Shown: positions 840-34,638 of the stretch, one piece after another | Numbering within the stretch: position 1 is the stretch's first letter | How the letters are laid out: each line of letters begins with the position of its first letter | Assembly (NCBI GenBank): GCA_903918375.1 | Contig: CAIXED010000068.1 | Coordinates: forward strand, 1 to 49,100 | Origin: an uncultured Pseudomonadota bacterium | GTDB lineage: Bacteria > Pseudomonadota > Gammaproteobacteria > Methylococcales > Methylomonadaceae | Reading direction: 5' to 3' | Length of the DNA stretch: 49,100 nucleotides | Notes under the pieces: model-generated | Told to the model about the DNA's origin: nothing | Databases searched by the model: none | Seen by the model: the letters and a program-made list of their open reading frames with translations, nothing else | Position numbers and translations under genes: made by a program

Positions 840-2750
840 ATGTTTAGAAAATTAAGCTTACTCGGCGCAATTTTGGCGCTGTTAGTAATCGCCATCGGCA
901 GTTACGTCAAATTAACCAATGCCGGATTAGGCTGTGAAGACTGGCCGGCCTGTTACGGCAAAAGCATTGTCAATCTGGCGGCTGACGCTGAATCACAAAC
1001 CGCCAATTATTGGATAGAGCAGGGCCATCGTTATTTAGCCTCGGGTTTAGGCATTCTGGCTTTAGTGCTATTGCCATTTGCTTGGCGTGCGCAACAACGT
1101 GGCAGAGCTTTAAGCTTGAATCTATTGTTATTGATTTTAGTCGCTTCACAAGCCGCTTTAGGTATCAGCACCATCAATCTGCAATTGATGCCGATTGTGG
1201 TCACCGCACATTTATTATTGGGCTTTGTGACCTTTTGGACTTTCAGCTGGAGTTACTTGCGTTTTAGCCCTAATTTGGCGGCACAATCGCAACGATCCGG
1301 TTTAGCCGTGTTTACGCTGTTTGCGATGCTAGTCTTAGTGTTGCAATTGGTTTTAGGGGCTTGGGTCGGTAGTAATTTTGCTGGTCTTGCTTGTAGCGAT
1401 TTCCCTCGTTGCAACGGTGTTTGGTTGCCAGAAGGTGATTACGCCGCCGCTTTAGATTTATTCAAGGGCTTGTTAACTGGCGATAGCTCGGTTTTACCAG
1501 AAGCTGCGCGAGTAATGATTCATGCTTTACATCGGGTTGCTGCTGTTGTGACTTTCATCGTGCTTAGCGCGGTGATGTTGAGTGCAACCAATGAAGAAGC
1601 ACCCAAACAAGTTCGTACTGCCGGTAATTTATTAAGCCTGTTGCTATTAATCGAAATCGGTTTAGGCATTTTCAGCGTTAAGCAATCATTACCGCTGTTT
1701 TTAACTTTAGCGCATAACCTTTTTGCCGCCTTATTGATGTTGCCGTTATTGGCGATTTATTTATTCAGCAAATATCGCCAACCATCTGTAGAAACTCAGC
1801 TAGAACCATCCGCTAAACCGCAACCCGTTGCTGACCAATCACAACGATTAAGCGGCCAGCTAAAGAAAACTCGTAGTGGCTTAAGCGGTCTTTTAGGTAA
1901 TTTATTGTCGGGTCAAAAAGCCGTTACCCGTGATTTATTAGACGAAATCGAAACCAGCTTGTTAATGGCGGATATTGGTATCGAAACCACCACTGCGATT
2001 ATCAACCAATTAACTAGCAGTTTGGAGCGCGAGCAACTGCGTGATGGCGAAGCCTTGCATCAAGCCTTAAAAGAAAACTTGTATCAAATGCTGCAACCTT
2101 GCAGCCAACCGCTAATCATCCCCAAACAAGATTCGCCTTATGTGATTTTAGTGGTCGGGGTTAATGGTGCTGGTAAAACCACTTCAATTGGCAAGCTGGC
2201 TAATCGCTTACAAGCCCAAGGCCACAGTGTGATGTTGGCTGCTGGTGATACTTTCCGCGCTGCGGCAGTAGAGCAATTGCAAACTTGGGGCGAGCGTAAT
2301 AATGTTCATGTCGTCGCTCAGCACACTGGTGCTGATTCAGCATCGGTGATTTTTGATGCTTTGGAATCCGCTAGAGCCAAAGGTGTTGATGTATTGATTG
2401 CCGATACCGCGGGTCGCTTACACACCAAATCGAATTTGATGGATGAGTTGAAAAAAATCAAACGCATCATGGGTAAATTAGACCAAGCGGCACCGCATGA
2501 AGTGTTATTGGTTTTAGATGCTGGGACCGGTCAAAATGCTTTATCGCAAGCACGATTGTTCAACGAAACCGTCCAGTTAACTGGTATCGCTTTAACTAAA
2601 TTAGACGGCACCGCCAAAGGCGGGGTGATTTTTGCTTTAGCCAATCAATTGCACATCCCGATTCGCTTTATTGGTGTTGGTGAAGCGATTGAGGATTTAC
2701 AAGATTTTGATGCTCGCACTTTTGTTGATGCTTTATTTGTAAAAGACTAA
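840..2750 (+). CDS. Fusion of heme A synthase (CtaA/COX15) and SRP receptor FtsY
   Basis: One uninterrupted 636-codon frame holds two complete proteins. Residues 1-312 are a CtaA/COX15 heme A synthase. It has about eight membrane helices, the Cys pairs C32/C38 (GLGCEDWPACYG) and C185/C191, and His at 63, 124, 228/231 and 292 in the positions expected for heme ligands. A 30-residue Pro/Gln/Ser-rich linker follows. Residues about 340-636 are the FtsY N and G domains: four-helix N domain, GVNGAGKTT P-loop (440-448), AGDTFRAAA (468-476), DTAGR (522-526), TKLDG (586-590) and GVGEAIEDL near the end. The usual acidic A domain of FtsY is absent. No in-frame ATG, GTG or TTG with a ribosome site lies in the linker, so separate FtsY synthesis looks unlikely. 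The gene sits 4 nt after the SCO-like gene and 4 nt before ftsE. It would tether FtsY permanently to the membrane and link oxidase maturation to protein targeting. I see no frame irregularity suggesting an assembly error. Confidence 0.9.
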   Translation: MFRKLSLLGAILALLVIAIGSYVKLTNAGLGCEDWPACYGKSIVNLAADAESQTANYWIEQGHRYLASGLGILALVLLPFAWRAQQRGRALSLNLLLLILVASQAALGISTINLQLMPIVVTAHLLLGFVTFWTFSWSYLRFSPNLAAQSQRSGLAVFTLFAMLVLVLQLVLGAWVGSNFAGLACSDFPRCNGVWLPEGDYAAALDLFKGLLTGDSSVLPEAARVMIHALHRVAAVVTFIVLSAVMLSATNEEAPKQVRTAGNLLSLLLLIEIGLGIFSVKQSLPLFLTLAHNLFAALLMLPLLAIYLFSKYRQPSVETQLEPSAKPQPVADQSQRLSGQLKKTRSGLSGLLGNLLSGQKAVTRDLLDEIETSLLMADIGIETTTAIINQLTSSLEREQLRDGEALHQALKENLYQMLQPCSQPLIIPKQDSPYVILVVGVNGAGKTTSIGKLANRLQAQGHSVMLAAGDTFRAAAVEQLQTWGERNNVHVVAQHTGADSASVIFDALESARAKGVDVLIADTAGRLHTKSNLMDELKKIKRIMGKLDQAAPHEVLLVLDAGTGQNALSQARLFNETVQLTGIALTKLDGTAKGGVIFALANQLHIPIRFIGVGEAIEDLQDFDARTFVDALFVKD

Positions 2751-2754
2751 CGCC

Positions 2755-3411
2755 ATGCTCAGATTCGAACACGTTTACAAACGCTATCCCGATGCCGGCG
2801 AAGCCTTAACCGATGTCAATTTTGATTTAAGCAAAGGTGAAATGGCTTTTTTAACCGGTCGTTCGGGAGCGGGTAAAAGTACCTTGTTGAAATTGATTGC
2901 CATGATGGAACAATGCACTCGCGGCACTATCATGCTCGATGGTCAAAACATCAGCCGGATTAGCGATAGAAAAATCCCGTATTTGCGCCGCAATTTGGGT
3001 CTGATTTTCCAAGACTATAAATTGCTAAACGATAGAACCGTGTTCGACAACGTGGCTTTGCCGTTGATTGTTTCAGGGGTTAATCATCAAGAAGTGTCAC
3101 GACGGGTGAGGGCTTCGCTGGATAAAGTCAGTTTATTAGGCAAAGAAAAGAAATACCCGCTGCATTTATCCGGTGGTGAACAACAACGGGTGGGTATTGC
3201 GCGTGCGATTGTGAACAAACCAAAATTGATTCTGGCCGACGAACCAACCGGTAACCTTGATCCGGGCTTGTCAGCAGAAGTGATGCAGATGTTTGAAGAG
3301 TTTAAATACAACGGTACTTCGGTACTAATTGCTACCCATGATATTGAATTGATTAATCGCTTGGGGCACCGAGTATTGACCTTGGATAAAGGCCATTTGA
3401 TTGCGAGTTAA
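2755..3411 (+). CDS. ftsE: Cell division ATP-binding protein FtsE
   Basis: This 218-aa ABC ATPase forms the FtsEX complex, which regulates septal peptidoglycan hydrolysis from the cytoplasmic side of the inner membrane. Visible motifs are Walker A GRSGAGKST (about 36-44), the Q-loop region LIFQDYKLL, the signature LSGGEQQR (about 138-145), Walker B LILADEPTGNLD and a switch His in IATHD. Length and sequence are typical. It starts 4 nt after the CtaA-FtsY stop and ends 3 nt before ftsX, so the three genes are almost certainly cotranscribed in the classical ftsY-E-X order. Confidence 0.96.
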   Translation: MLRFEHVYKRYPDAGEALTDVNFDLSKGEMAFLTGRSGAGKSTLLKLIAMMEQCTRGTIMLDGQNISRISDRKIPYLRRNLGLIFQDYKLLNDRTVFDNVALPLIVSGVNHQEVSRRVRASLDKVSLLGKEKKYPLHLSGGEQQRVGIARAIVNKPKLILADEPTGNLDPGLSAEVMQMFEEFKYNGTSVLIATHDIELINRLGHRVLTLDKGHLIAS

Positions 3412-3414
3412 CCG

Positions 3415-4392
3415 ATGAAAAAACCGAAAACAATCCGCAAACATCAACAAAGTTTGAAAGACAAATTGGTCGAAAAATTCGAAGCCTATTTGCTTAATCA
3501 CGCCCATGGCTTATTTTCCAGCTTAGGTCGCATGACCCGCACCCCATTCACCTCAGCAATGACCATTTTGGTATTAGCGGTGGCGATTTCATTAGCGGGT
3601 GGTTTTTACATTGTGGTTGGCAATATCCAGCAGCTGACCGGTAATTTAGAAGCCAGCAATCAAATGTCGCTGTTCTTAAAAGACAATATCACCGATTCAG
3701 CTGGGCAAAAACTAGCCGACCAGCTCAAGCAACATCCCAGCAGCGAAGCGGTGAAATTCATCACTAAAAAACAAGCGATGGAAGAGTTCAAAGCCAATAG
3801 TGGCTTTGGCGAAGCCTTGACCGCATTAGATACCAATCCCTTGCCTAGCGTGATTCAAGTTCAGCCGAAGAACAGCCTGGATAGCAACGAAGACATTGAA
3901 AAATTGATGGCTGAGTTTAAACAATTGCCACAAGTCGATTTCGTCCAAGTCGATATGCAATGGATAGAGCGGATGCAAACCATCATGCTGATTGCCAGCC
4001 GCGCGGTGTTTTTAGTCAGCTTGTTGCTCGGTTTCGCCGTGACCTTCATTACTGGCAACACGATTCGTTTGGAACTGCATCACCGCCGTGACGAGGTGTA
4101 TATCTCCAAGCTGGTCGGTGCAACCTTATCTTTTATTCAGCGGCCTTTTTTGTACTGCGGTTTTTGGCTGGGTTTCATTGCCGGTTTTTCAGCCTGGCTG
4201 ATTATCACCATCATGTTGTTAATCGTCGAATCGCCGGTTGAAAAGTTATCGACCTTATATAACAGCGCTTTTGAATTGCAGTTTTTAGGCTTCTTCGAGT
4301 TTTTAGCATTATTGTTGCTGGCTTCTGGCTTAGCGGTATTAGGCTCGTGGGGCGTTTTGCATTATCAATTGCGTCAACTCAAACCCCAATAA
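3415..4392 (+). CDS. ftsX: Cell division protein FtsX
   Basis: This 325-aa permease-like partner of FtsE has the expected topology. A basic cytoplasmic N-terminus (1-45) leads to TM1 near 48-70, then a periplasmic domain of about 115 residues that in the family contacts murein hydrolase activators. Three more helices follow near 193-215, 240-265 and 290-315. The cytoplasmic RLELHHRRDEVYISKLVGAT segment before TM3 is the conserved coupling region. The N-terminal extension is as in other gammaproteobacterial FtsX. The heat-shock sigma gene rpoH, which often follows ftsX, is not here; ycgN follows after 4 nt instead. Confidence 0.95.
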   Translation: MKKPKTIRKHQQSLKDKLVEKFEAYLLNHAHGLFSSLGRMTRTPFTSAMTILVLAVAISLAGGFYIVVGNIQQLTGNLEASNQMSLFLKDNITDSAGQKLADQLKQHPSSEAVKFITKKQAMEEFKANSGFGEALTALDTNPLPSVIQVQPKNSLDSNEDIEKLMAEFKQLPQVDFVQVDMQWIERMQTIMLIASRAVFLVSLLLGFAVTFITGNTIRLELHHRRDEVYISKLVGATLSFIQRPFLYCGFWLGFIAGFSAWLIITIMLLIVESPVEKLSTLYNSAFELQFLGFFEFLALLLLASGLAVLGSWGVLHYQLRQLKPQ

Positions 4393-32605: not shown

Positions 32606-33775
32606 ATGAACATTCACGAATATCAAGCCAAACAATTGTTTAGGGATTTTGCTATCCCTGTGCCACGCGGTGCGGTGGCCGAATCTGCTCAACAAGCGAT
32701 GCATGCAGCTGAATCGATTGCCGCCGCTAGTTGGGTAATCAAAGCCCAAATTCATGCAGGCGCTCGTGGTAAAGCCGGTGGCGTTAAAGTTGCCGATAGT
32801 TTTGAGCAAGTCAAAAGCATCGCTCAGGAAATGTTGGGCACCCAGTTAGTCACTCATCAAACCGACAGCGCTGGTTTGCCAGTCAACAGTGTTTTGGTTG
32901 AAGAAGTCTCAGCGATTAAAGACGAGTTTTATCTGAGTTTATTGGTGGATCGCGAAACCGAGCGTTTGATGTTTATTGCTTCGGCGGCCGGTGGCATGGA
33001 TATTGAAGCGGTTGCTGCTGAAACACCGGAAAAAATTGTGCGGGTGCCTGTGCATCCAGCAGCGGGTTTACAAGCGTATCAAGCCCGTCAAATTGGCGCA
33101 GCTTTAGGTTTGGATAAAGACCAACAAAAACAGTTGTTGCCGATTTTGAACGGCATCTATCAGCTGTTTTTAGCCAAAGACGCCAGTCAAATCGAAATCA
33201 ATCCTTTAATCAGCACTACTCAAGGCCAATTAGTCGCCTTGGATGCCAAAATTAATTTTGATGACAATGCCTTGGCTTTGCATCCCGCGATAGCTGCCTT
33301 GCGAGATACCGCGCAAGAAGACGCTAAAGAAGTACAAGCTAAGCAATTCGATCTGAATTACATCACTTTGGGCGGCAACATCGGCTGTATGGTTAACGGT
33401 GCAGGCTTGGCGATGGCGACCATGGACATGGTGAAATTGAAAGGCGGTGCGCCGGCTAACTTTTTGGATGTCGGTGGCGGTACCAATAAAGACAAAGTTA
33501 AAGAAGCGTTTAAATTGATTATTGCCGATGGTACGGTCAAAGCGGTGTTGGTCAATATTTTTGGCGGCATTGTGCAATGCGACGTGATTGCGGCAGGGAT
33601 TTTGGCAGCGGTGGAAGAAATGCAATTGACGATTCCGGTGGTGGTGCGTCTGGAAGGCACTAATGCAGAACAGGGTAGAGCGATGTTGAACCAATCCGGT
33701 TTAGGTTTAGTGGCTGCCGAAGATTTGAACAGCGCAGCGGCACAAGTAGTCGCTTTAGCGGAGGCAGTGGCATGA
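32606..33775 (+). CDS. sucC: Succinate-CoA ligase (ADP-forming) beta subunit
   Basis: This 389-aa protein has an ATP-grasp domain at the N-terminus ([32 protein letters not shown] near residues 196-201) and a C-terminal ligase domain ([43 protein letters not shown]). With the alpha subunit it converts succinyl-CoA and ADP to succinate and ATP in the TCA cycle. Malate-CoA ligase (MtkA) of the serine cycle is a close paralog, but the resemblance to E. coli SucC along the whole chain favours SucC. It overlaps sucD by 4 nt. Confidence 0.92.
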
Positions 33776-34638
33776 GCATTTTGATTGATAAAAATACTCG
33801 GGTAATTTGCCAAGGTTTTACCGGCAAACAAGGCACTTTCCATTCCCAACAAGCCTTGGCTTATGGTACGCAATTAGTCGGCGGTGTTACCCCGGGGCGT
33901 GGCGATTCTAGTCATTTAGATTTACCGGTTTTTGACACCGTACAACAAGCGGTACAAGCGACCGGTGCAACGGCGACCATGATTTATGTACCACCGTTTT
34001 TTGCTGCTGATGCGATTTTAGAAGCAGTTGATGCGGGGATTGAATTAATCGTTTGTATTACCGAAGGTATTCCGGTGTTGCAAATGTTGCGGGTAAAAGC
34101 CGCGATGCAAGGCACTCAATCCTTATTAGTTGGCCCTAATTGCCCCGGTGTGATTACCCCCGGCCAATGCAAAATCGGCATCATGCCAGGCCATATTCAT
34201 TTACCTGGCAAAATTGGTATTGTCTCGCGTTCTGGCACTTTAACTTACGAAGCGGTGCATCAAACCACCCAACAAGGTTTAGGGCAAAGCAATTGCGTGG
34301 GGATTGGCGGTGATCCGATTCATGGCATGAATTTCATTGATGTTTTAAGTCGCTTTCAAGCTGACGAGCAAACTCAAGGGATTGTGATGGTCGGTGAAAT
34401 TGGCGGTAATGACGAAGAGTTAGCGGCAGAATTTATCAAAGCTCATGTTACTAAACCGGTGGTTGGCTATATTGCCGGACAAACCGCACCAGCTGGCAAA
34501 CGCATGGGTCACGCTGGCGCGATTGTCACCGGTGGCGCAGGCACCGCGGCCGGTAAAATCGCCGCCATGCAAGCTGCTGGTGTACAAATGGTTAGCTCAC
34601 CTTCCGATATTGGCGCAGCGATGCGTGCTTGTTTTTAA
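33772..34638 (+). CDS. sucD: Succinate-CoA ligase (ADP-forming) alpha subunit
   Basis: This 288-aa protein has an N-terminal CoA-binding Rossmann domain ([29 protein letters not shown]) and a ligase domain ([38 protein letters not shown]). The phosphohistidine segment RMGHAGAIV is present near 243-251. Its start overlaps the sucC stop, so the subunits are coupled. The suc genes stand apart from sucAB here, with nadE 9 nt downstream. Confidence 0.93.

Follow-up and report, generated by a model that had tools for sequence, protein, structure and literature searches.

Why would a bacterium carry its signal recognition particle (SRP) receptor, FtsY, at the end of a heme A synthase? The receptor is essential, and the way in which FtsY gets to the membrane is a long-standing question. 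The locus that raises it here lies in 49,100 nucleotides of contig CAIXED010000068.1 (assembly GCA_903918375.1), from an uncultured bacterium of the Methylomonadaceae (order Methylococcales), and we refer to this whole stretch as the window. Positions 840–2750 of its forward strand form a single uninterrupted frame of 636 codons, from an ATG to a stop codon included in these coordinates, that encodes a CtaA domain, a linker, and FtsY as one protein of 636 amino acids (aa). Equivalent single-frame CtaA-FtsY fusions were read in 129 genomes, one per genome. We put at roughly 75% the probability that this is a permanently membrane-anchored SRP receptor, bifunctional at first, whose enzyme half has repeatedly been reduced to a heme-b anchor.

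Two proteins in one frame

An earlier note, made from the letters of this DNA, had read the frame as CtaA, a short linker, and the N and G (NG) domains of FtsY, and the profile models agree. Pfam placed COX15-CtaA (PF02628) at residues 5–301, SRP54_N at 351–414, and the SRP54 GTPase at 433–633. The CtaA half scored 190.1 bits with PF02628 (cut-off 29.9), and the FtsY half scored 368.7 bits with the equivalog model TIGR00064 (cut-off 260.7), the Ffh and FlhF models staying under their cut-offs. Weaker Pfam matches (Zeta_toxin, AAA types) were taken as P-loop cross-matches inside the GTPase. None of the curated NCBIfam CtaA models passed its cut-off, the alphaproteobacterial one reaching 54.9 of 550 bits.

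The CtaA half divides into two bundles of transmembrane helices (TM). The N-terminal (N) bundle (840–1262, forward strand like all features of the gene; residues 1–141, TM1–TM4) holds C32/C38 in the first extracellular loop (ECL1), E60, H63, and H124; the C-terminal (C) bundle (1299–1772; residues 154–311, TM5–TM8) holds C185/C191 in ECL3, H231, and H292. These include every Cys and His that had been expected of the enzyme. According to PMC7327177, drawn on in excerpt like the other papers cited here, heme A synthase binds heme B in its C bundle through two His, TM5 and TM6 of that bundle form a trimer core, and the N bundle is a peripheral domain for the substrate heme. Hydropathy predicted eight helices ahead of FtsY, and an AlphaFold2 model likewise showed an NG-like part behind eight long helices (mean predicted local distance difference test score, pLDDT, 79; predicted template modeling score, pTM, 0.55). 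Because of the pTM, we left the domain arrangement in the model uninterpreted. The 50 Foldseek matches listed were all FtsY or SRP proteins and so gave no structural confirmation of the CtaA fold; a sequence search at E ≤ 1 gave 8aw5 as the one solved relative. By all sequence features tested, save the curated NCBIfam cut-off, this half is CtaA.

The FtsY half follows a linker of 24 residues (1773–1844; residues 312–335). It begins with the amphipathic, lipid-binding helix of FtsY (1845–1919; residues 336–360), which aligns with E. coli FtsY NG+1, and continues through the N and G domains (1920–2747) with every GTPase motif present. As a sequence match, the solved E. coli FtsY aligns from the lipid helix to the C-terminal end (E ~1e-113), and the fold search gave 59–60% identity between the FtsY part and E. 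coli FtsY NG+1. By every feature tested at the sequence level, the window protein is an FtsY.

The earlier note had proposed that the enzyme replaces the membrane-targeting part of FtsY, a claim that does not hold as worded, since the lipid-binding helix was kept. An RLxxxLxKT-like helix start precedes the N domain in 129/129 fusions by a loose pattern, and a tighter pattern found it in 96/129, missing the window. Nor does the missing A domain mark the fusion, as four unfused FtsYs of families f7 and f8 are also short (331–346 aa). The motifs GxNGxGKTT, DTFRA, DTAGR, and TKLDG occur in 129/129 fusions, two of them having been used in picking the frames. The linker varies in sequence and in length (18–65 residues over the 129) and is net acidic (median 6 in the 96 fusions measured).

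That every receptor of the cell would be anchored in this way fits what we found in the rest of the genome, a draft of 2.79 Mb in 82 contigs that is 99.8% complete and in which the window starts at a contig end. A PF00448 profile search gave three SRP-type GTPases: the fused FtsY, Ffh on contig C80 (TIGR00959, 569.5 bits against 473.2), and a 399-aa protein on contig C22 that, by eye and by its MinD-like and sigma-factor-like neighbors, was taken for FlhF. This search found no FtsY besides the fused copy, so that the only FtsY found sits on a CtaA half, and the eight predicted helices ahead of it are compatible with the proposed topology. Separate intact genes had been named as the finding that would undo the idea; a separate ftsY was not found, and a free CtaA of another type does exist.

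That free CtaA is the second of two PF02628 matches in the genome (C71:18007–18900). Its gene encodes 324 aa (locus L253, 6975–7949, on C71) and lies among housekeeping genes outside the cox operon, downstream of a ygfZ-like gene. It has Asn in place of H63 and lacks the second Cys pair, and the three free copies read (G000, G531, and G543) were alike in this. One of the natural types of CtaA in PMC8239418 has H60N (type 1.3), and by analogy with it the free copy is probably an enzyme; it may have entered the genome independently of the cox operon. With COX1 and CtaB both present, this genome has a use for heme A.

Distribution and origin of the fusion

The architecture search that had been suggested gave the same fusion in families f1–f6 of Methylococcales, as the genome taxonomy defines that order, six of the eight families sampled. 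For the set of 129 we dropped L086, a second copy of G003, and read L261–L268 apart, and identity means were taken without L069; the fusion in G016 is cut at a contig end, with C32/C38 out of view. Same-genus relatives mostly matched over the full length in one frame, and in G004 and G034 the halves appeared as two matches in one frame; the tally of 61/61 in the relatives search counts any match, FtsY alone included, and is no count of fusions. Five genomes with the fusion are one contig each (G017, G021, G025, G027, and G035). A genome_contigs scan, which is no census, showed the fusion in records that carry names, from Methylomonas koyamae R-45383, Methylomonas sp. SURF-1, Ca. Methylobacter oryzae KRF1, and two metagenome-assembled genomes (Methylococcus sp. 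UBA6136 and Gammaproteobacteria Ifr-MOX-184); five of its best 80 CtaA loci were fused (L170, L171, L172, L173, and L176). A search of the order took in 251 genomes, the total of fused genes across them being left uncounted.

Outside families f1–f6, the samples showed no fusion. Genomes G042, G048, G053, G056, and G059 of f7 and G043 of f8 have FtsY frames of 343–367 aa with CtaA elsewhere, and in 9/9 tested genomes of these two families the CtaA frames were unfused and 325–333 aa long (PF02628 on 52 genomes of f2–f8). In a class search of 369 genomes, 363 of them with a match, the full-length ones among the score-sorted matches listed were G000, G308, and G039, all Methylococcales. A phylum search matched 73 of 120 genomes at 1e-80, and the 72 other than our own cover FtsY only, from residue 314 or later; the remaining 47 had no match at that threshold and are uninformative. 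A literature search on heme A synthase, CtaA, or COX15 with FtsY, or on FtsY of methanotrophs, gave no description of such a fusion, judged by titles and the openings of abstracts.

Several long FtsY frames in other members of the class looked at first like further cases. By eye, those of G147, G326, G344, and G395 are an open frame upstream of the gene and that of G381 is a long repetitive extension, and we rejected all five. Other proteobacterial FtsY frames (L043 and the class and phylum matches; ~450–700 aa) have open N-terminal extensions of very varied length, none of them CtaA-like among the matches listed. Within the fused families, frames of 744–836 aa reach upstream of the usual fusion start in L069 (G046), L156 (G456), and L078/L168 (Methylomonas koyamae group), and the added stretch resembles non-coding or out-of-frame sequence, which makes it a problem of start-codon annotation and no third domain. 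Inside f4, no FtsY was found in G482 (genus g311, 89% complete), and its fusion may be missing from the assembly. The same genome carries an unfused CtaA with two Cys pairs (L268, C4:86498–87463), and G465, of the same genus, has three PF02628 matches.

Gene order suggests how the two genes were joined. In the unfused arrangement of f7 and f8 (L075, L076), ftsY-ftsE-ftsX-rpoH faces ctaB-ctaA-(a gene for a ~200-aa protein)-SURF1-cox on the other strand, and beyond ftsY, pointing away, stand M16 peptidase and rsmD-like genes, with a coaD-like gene in L076 as well. In f6 (L070, L084) the genes run cox-SURF1-[ctaA::ftsY]-ftsE-ftsX-rpoH, followed by ctaB on the other strand. Past ctaB come one or more M16 peptidase genes, the same as stand ahead of ftsY in f7 but reversed in orientation, to which L084 adds rsmD- and coaD-like genes. 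On this comparison, a single inversion, breaking near the 5′ end of ftsY and again at the junction of ctaA and ctaB, gives the fused order from the unfused one. The fusion keeps ftsE and ftsX behind it in our own genome and in L065, with ctaB on another contig or far off; in L068 the neighborhood is lost. The names confirmed by models are ftsE and ftsX in the window, rpoH and ctaB in f7, and ftsY in f8, the remaining gene names being by eye. When 33 FtsY sequences were placed on a careful tree, the 23 from fusions formed one clade (84/85) with f8 as its sister (99/95) and f7 outside, and a single origin of the fusion is likely on these sequences.

Erosion of the CtaA half

The two bundles have fared very differently. 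The C-bundle residues C185, C191, H231, and H292 are complete in 128/129 fusions, the exception being G509, while E60, H63, and H124 are complete in 53/129. In 33 only E60 has changed, E60 being less surely aligned than the His residues, and in 43 one or both His are gone, so that the N-bundle set is incomplete in 76/129; both substrate-site His are gone in 30/129. Parsimony on the FtsY tree needed at the fewest 19 changes for the His pair and one for the C bundle. Among six fusions read outside the 129, G614 and G615 retain all four C-bundle residues, as do G579 and G584 by eye. Natural CtaA types vary at E57, H60, or H123 (PMC8239418, excerpted), so a fusion without E60 or one His need not be inactive; the absence of both His, or of TM2–TM3, is a stronger sign of inactivity.

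Some fusions have lost whole helices. In the four genomes of genus g300 that we read, the protein is 564 aa long and lacks the part with ECL1, TM2, and TM3; hydropathy of two of these sequences gave six helices, an even count like eight. At least eight more genomes of the genus have frames of 564–582 aa that match from residue 111–115 on in the order search. In genus g304 (L262 G591, L266 G543, and L261 G584) what is left of the decayed CtaA half is a set of hydrophobic helices still fused to FtsY, which in G591 and G543 can hardly be recognized as CtaA. This genus is the far end of the decay series.

A spare CtaA accompanies most of these fusions. The PF02628 search covered our own genome and 153 others, including all 129 fusion genomes, and found a free CtaA in 120 of the 129. 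It found none in nine: G535, G549, G565, and G616 (one genus), G040, the incomplete G499, G029, G016, and G050; the second match in G016 is its fusion again, an N-terminal fragment on a separate contig. Eight of these nine have the full catalytic set in the fusion and one has lost it, G050, whose free CtaA may be absent from an assembly that is 85% complete. In the five genomes that are ≥90% complete and without a free CtaA, the fused set is intact in 5/5. Where a free CtaA is present, the fusion is intact in 45 genomes, changed only at E60 in 33, and short of His in 42. The data fit a need for the fused half to be active wherever a genome has no other CtaA, as a consistent pattern across few independent lineages and not as a test. 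COX1 was found in G535, G565, and G040.

We compared ratios of nonsynonymous to synonymous substitution rates (dN/dS), which as pairwise Nei-Gojobori estimates are indicative only. Between the window and G033 they were 0.049 for the N bundle, 0.081 for the C bundle, and 0.016 for FtsY. Over seven intact pairs the N bundle ranged from 0.038 to 0.093 and the C bundle from 0.030 to 0.090, with N higher in four, equal in one, and lower in two. Over nine non-intact pairs, partly non-independent, N exceeded C in 9/9 (N 0.087–0.605, C 0.053–0.256); four of 13 non-intact pairs without a defined value in both bundles, and the near-identical G035/G020, had been dropped. These values indicate that both CtaA bundles are constrained in the window lineage and that the N bundle is relaxed where the site is lost. 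Since the window species has every residue of the catalytic set and selection on both bundles is purifying, its fused half probably still makes heme A, beside the free CtaA.

Probable anchoring, its alternatives, and the surrounding genes

What the sequence shows directly is the single frame, its conservation, no second FtsY found in the window's genome, the retained lipid helix, the gene order on either side, and the pattern of residue losses. In the mechanism we propose, the CtaA half would insert with both ends in the cytoplasm, and the GTPase, tied to the last helix by ~24 residues, would be held permanently at the inner membrane. Anchored there, FtsY would meet the SRP-ribosome complex much as a membrane-tethered FtsY does. 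According to PMC2780400 (citing Zelazny 1997; excerpted), FtsY functions in vivo when a transmembrane domain tethers it, and membrane residence is argued there to be what counts. The ancestral fusion would have been bifunctional. In many relatives with a free CtaA, the substrate-heme N bundle would then have lost its His ligands or two helices, with the C bundle, the heme b and trimer core half of the studied homolog, nearly always kept. Because the C bundle was kept and the N bundle lost, the function common to all members is most likely anchoring. Given the bundle roles in the excerpt of PMC7327177, what was kept is the heme b and trimer half and what was lost is the substrate periphery, and by analogy the anchor is probably stabilized by heme b and possibly oligomeric. 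More speculatively, and in our judgment improbably, the conserved bundle would be more than a passive anchor: loaded with heme b and forming trimers, it would make the SRP receptor of methanotrophs a cytochrome. Occupancy or redox state of heme b would then govern how FtsY oligomerizes or touches lipid, and would thereby couple co-translational insertion of membrane proteins to heme supply.

Anchored FtsY is already known; a CtaA anchor did not appear in the literature examined. Like FtsY as defined by TIGR00064, the fusion has N and G domains, the GTPase motifs, a lipid helix ahead of the N domain, and ftsE and ftsX downstream. However, where FtsY usually has an A domain the fusion begins with an integral membrane protein of eight helices, whereas other proteobacterial FtsYs are peripheral. 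FtsYs with a transmembrane helix, in Gram-positives or archaea, and the artificial FtsY NG fusion of Zelazny 1997, reported functional in the excerpted PMC2780400, share the permanent tether, but their anchor is a helix or a laboratory partner, and here a complete enzyme family was recruited in nature. With CtaA/COX15 proteins that have two Cys pairs (PF02628; type 1.1 of PMC8239418) the fusion shares two four-helix bundles, the Cys pairs, four His, and the Glu; it differs in bearing FtsY at its C terminus and in relatives whose substrate half is often degenerate or partly deleted. CtaA is likewise part of a larger polypeptide in the CtaA-CtaB fusions described in parts of PMC8239418 and PMC9145763, where the partner is the preceding enzyme of the pathway and not, as here, an unrelated essential targeting GTPase. 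The archaeal CtaA with four TM (Aeropyrum type; same excerpts) is also one four-helix bundle without the other half. That enzyme is a homodimer, whereas in the reduced fusions TM1 and TM4 remain beside the C bundle.

Other findings weigh against the anchored receptor as we describe it. A fast tree of 139 rows puts the f8 FtsY inside the fused clade, and the 84/85 support for that clade in the careful tree is unstarred, which makes a single origin likely and not proven. Two fusions, G509 of the 129 and G591, lack the heme b site, G591 having lost all of it, and in G543 the fusion has lost the Cys pair and is hardly recognizable, so that not every fusion needs heme b for anchoring. Of the five complete genomes with only a fused CtaA, two (G549 and G616) gave no COX1 when searched, which weakens the argument that the fused copy must work in such genomes. 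Anchoring alone leaves unexplained the complete N bundle of Methylomonas, present despite a free CtaA. Anchoring itself, a 70-kDa product, its orientation, heme, and activity are predictions, and proteolytic release of FtsY is possible.

Such release is the basis of an alternative that we regard as unlikely: one chain is cut in the linker to yield an ordinary CtaA and an ordinary peripheral FtsY, so that the fusion shares only a message and an insertion event. The variable, net acidic linker would suit a cut, and FtsY retains its own lipid helix, as though seeking the membrane alone. E. coli FtsY is itself clipped between its A and N domains. Yet a separated CtaA half without its substrate site has no evident use, and 30 of the 129 fusions keep one without both His; genus g300, moreover, lost two helices together, which leaves the C terminus on the same side. 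Somewhat less probable still, to our minds, is functional coupling, whereby the receptor hands nascent cytochrome oxidase subunit I to heme A synthase and heme A is inserted during synthesis. The gene's place at the end of the cox operon is in its favor, as are the contacts of yeast Cox15 oligomers with Cox1 and assembly factors (PMC7327177, excerpted) and the catalytic set that Methylomonas mostly keeps although a free CtaA exists. However, all SRP clients would dock here, beyond subunit I, and the fusion has outlasted many losses or deletions of the substrate site, so channeling cannot be the general reason for it.

It is very doubtful that an internal translation start yields a separate FtsY besides the fusion. 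An in-frame ATG, GTG, or TTG does occur within a 52-codon stretch around the linker in 129/129, as it may in any coding stretch that long, but the candidates nearest the linker in the window all fall inside TM8 and none has a Shine-Dalgarno-like match. Across the set, an ATG or GTG with such a match occurs in 20/129, against 4, 28, and 49/129 in three control stretches, so the check proposed earlier gave no enrichment. An assembly or annotation artefact, which the draft state of the genome and the position of the window at a contig end might suggest, we consider negligible in probability, as identical architecture recurs in independent assemblies, some of them one contig, and in named records. 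A stop codon or frameshift in the linker was rejected on the single uninterrupted frame in the window and the 129 genomes.

An anchored receptor with an eroding enzyme half also bears on the question, posed by the earlier note, of how synthesis of an essential protein is balanced with that of an oxidase assembly enzyme. Evolution has partly answered it, the enzyme half having lost its site or helices in many relatives while the fusion stayed. What we describe looks like a natural, permanently anchored SRP receptor with an unexpected partner, present through most of a bacterial order. Across that order the enzyme has been taken apart time and again into its anchor and catalytic parts, and the fusions form a natural series that runs from those that are the sole CtaA, through complete ones with a spare CtaA, catalytically degenerate ones, and partly deleted ones, to bare helices. 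Whether an anchored receptor suffices, and whether the heme site matters for targeting, is testable in living methanotrophs. For annotation, a CtaA match in Methylococcales need not equal an active enzyme.

The genes around the fusion, all on the forward strand, place it at the end of the cox operon. The contig starts inside a SURF1-like gene, whose C-terminal end (19–258) was named by eye from the full gene in L065, itself at 100.7 bits with the SURF1 model and below the cut-off of 190. It is followed by a gene for a 197-aa cox-operon protein (242–835) that stops four bases ahead of the fusion start and has a remote match to NF058629, a redox-active disulfide protein family (50.8 bits, below the cut-off of 230). 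Downstream, ftsE (2755–3411; TIGR02673, 292.4 bits against 264.85) starts four bases past the fusion stop, and ftsX follows (3415–4392; TIGR00439, 332.2 bits against 255). Farther along the window, at 32606–34638, two genes resemble by eye both subunits of succinate/malate-CoA ligase, which is plausible for a methanotroph.

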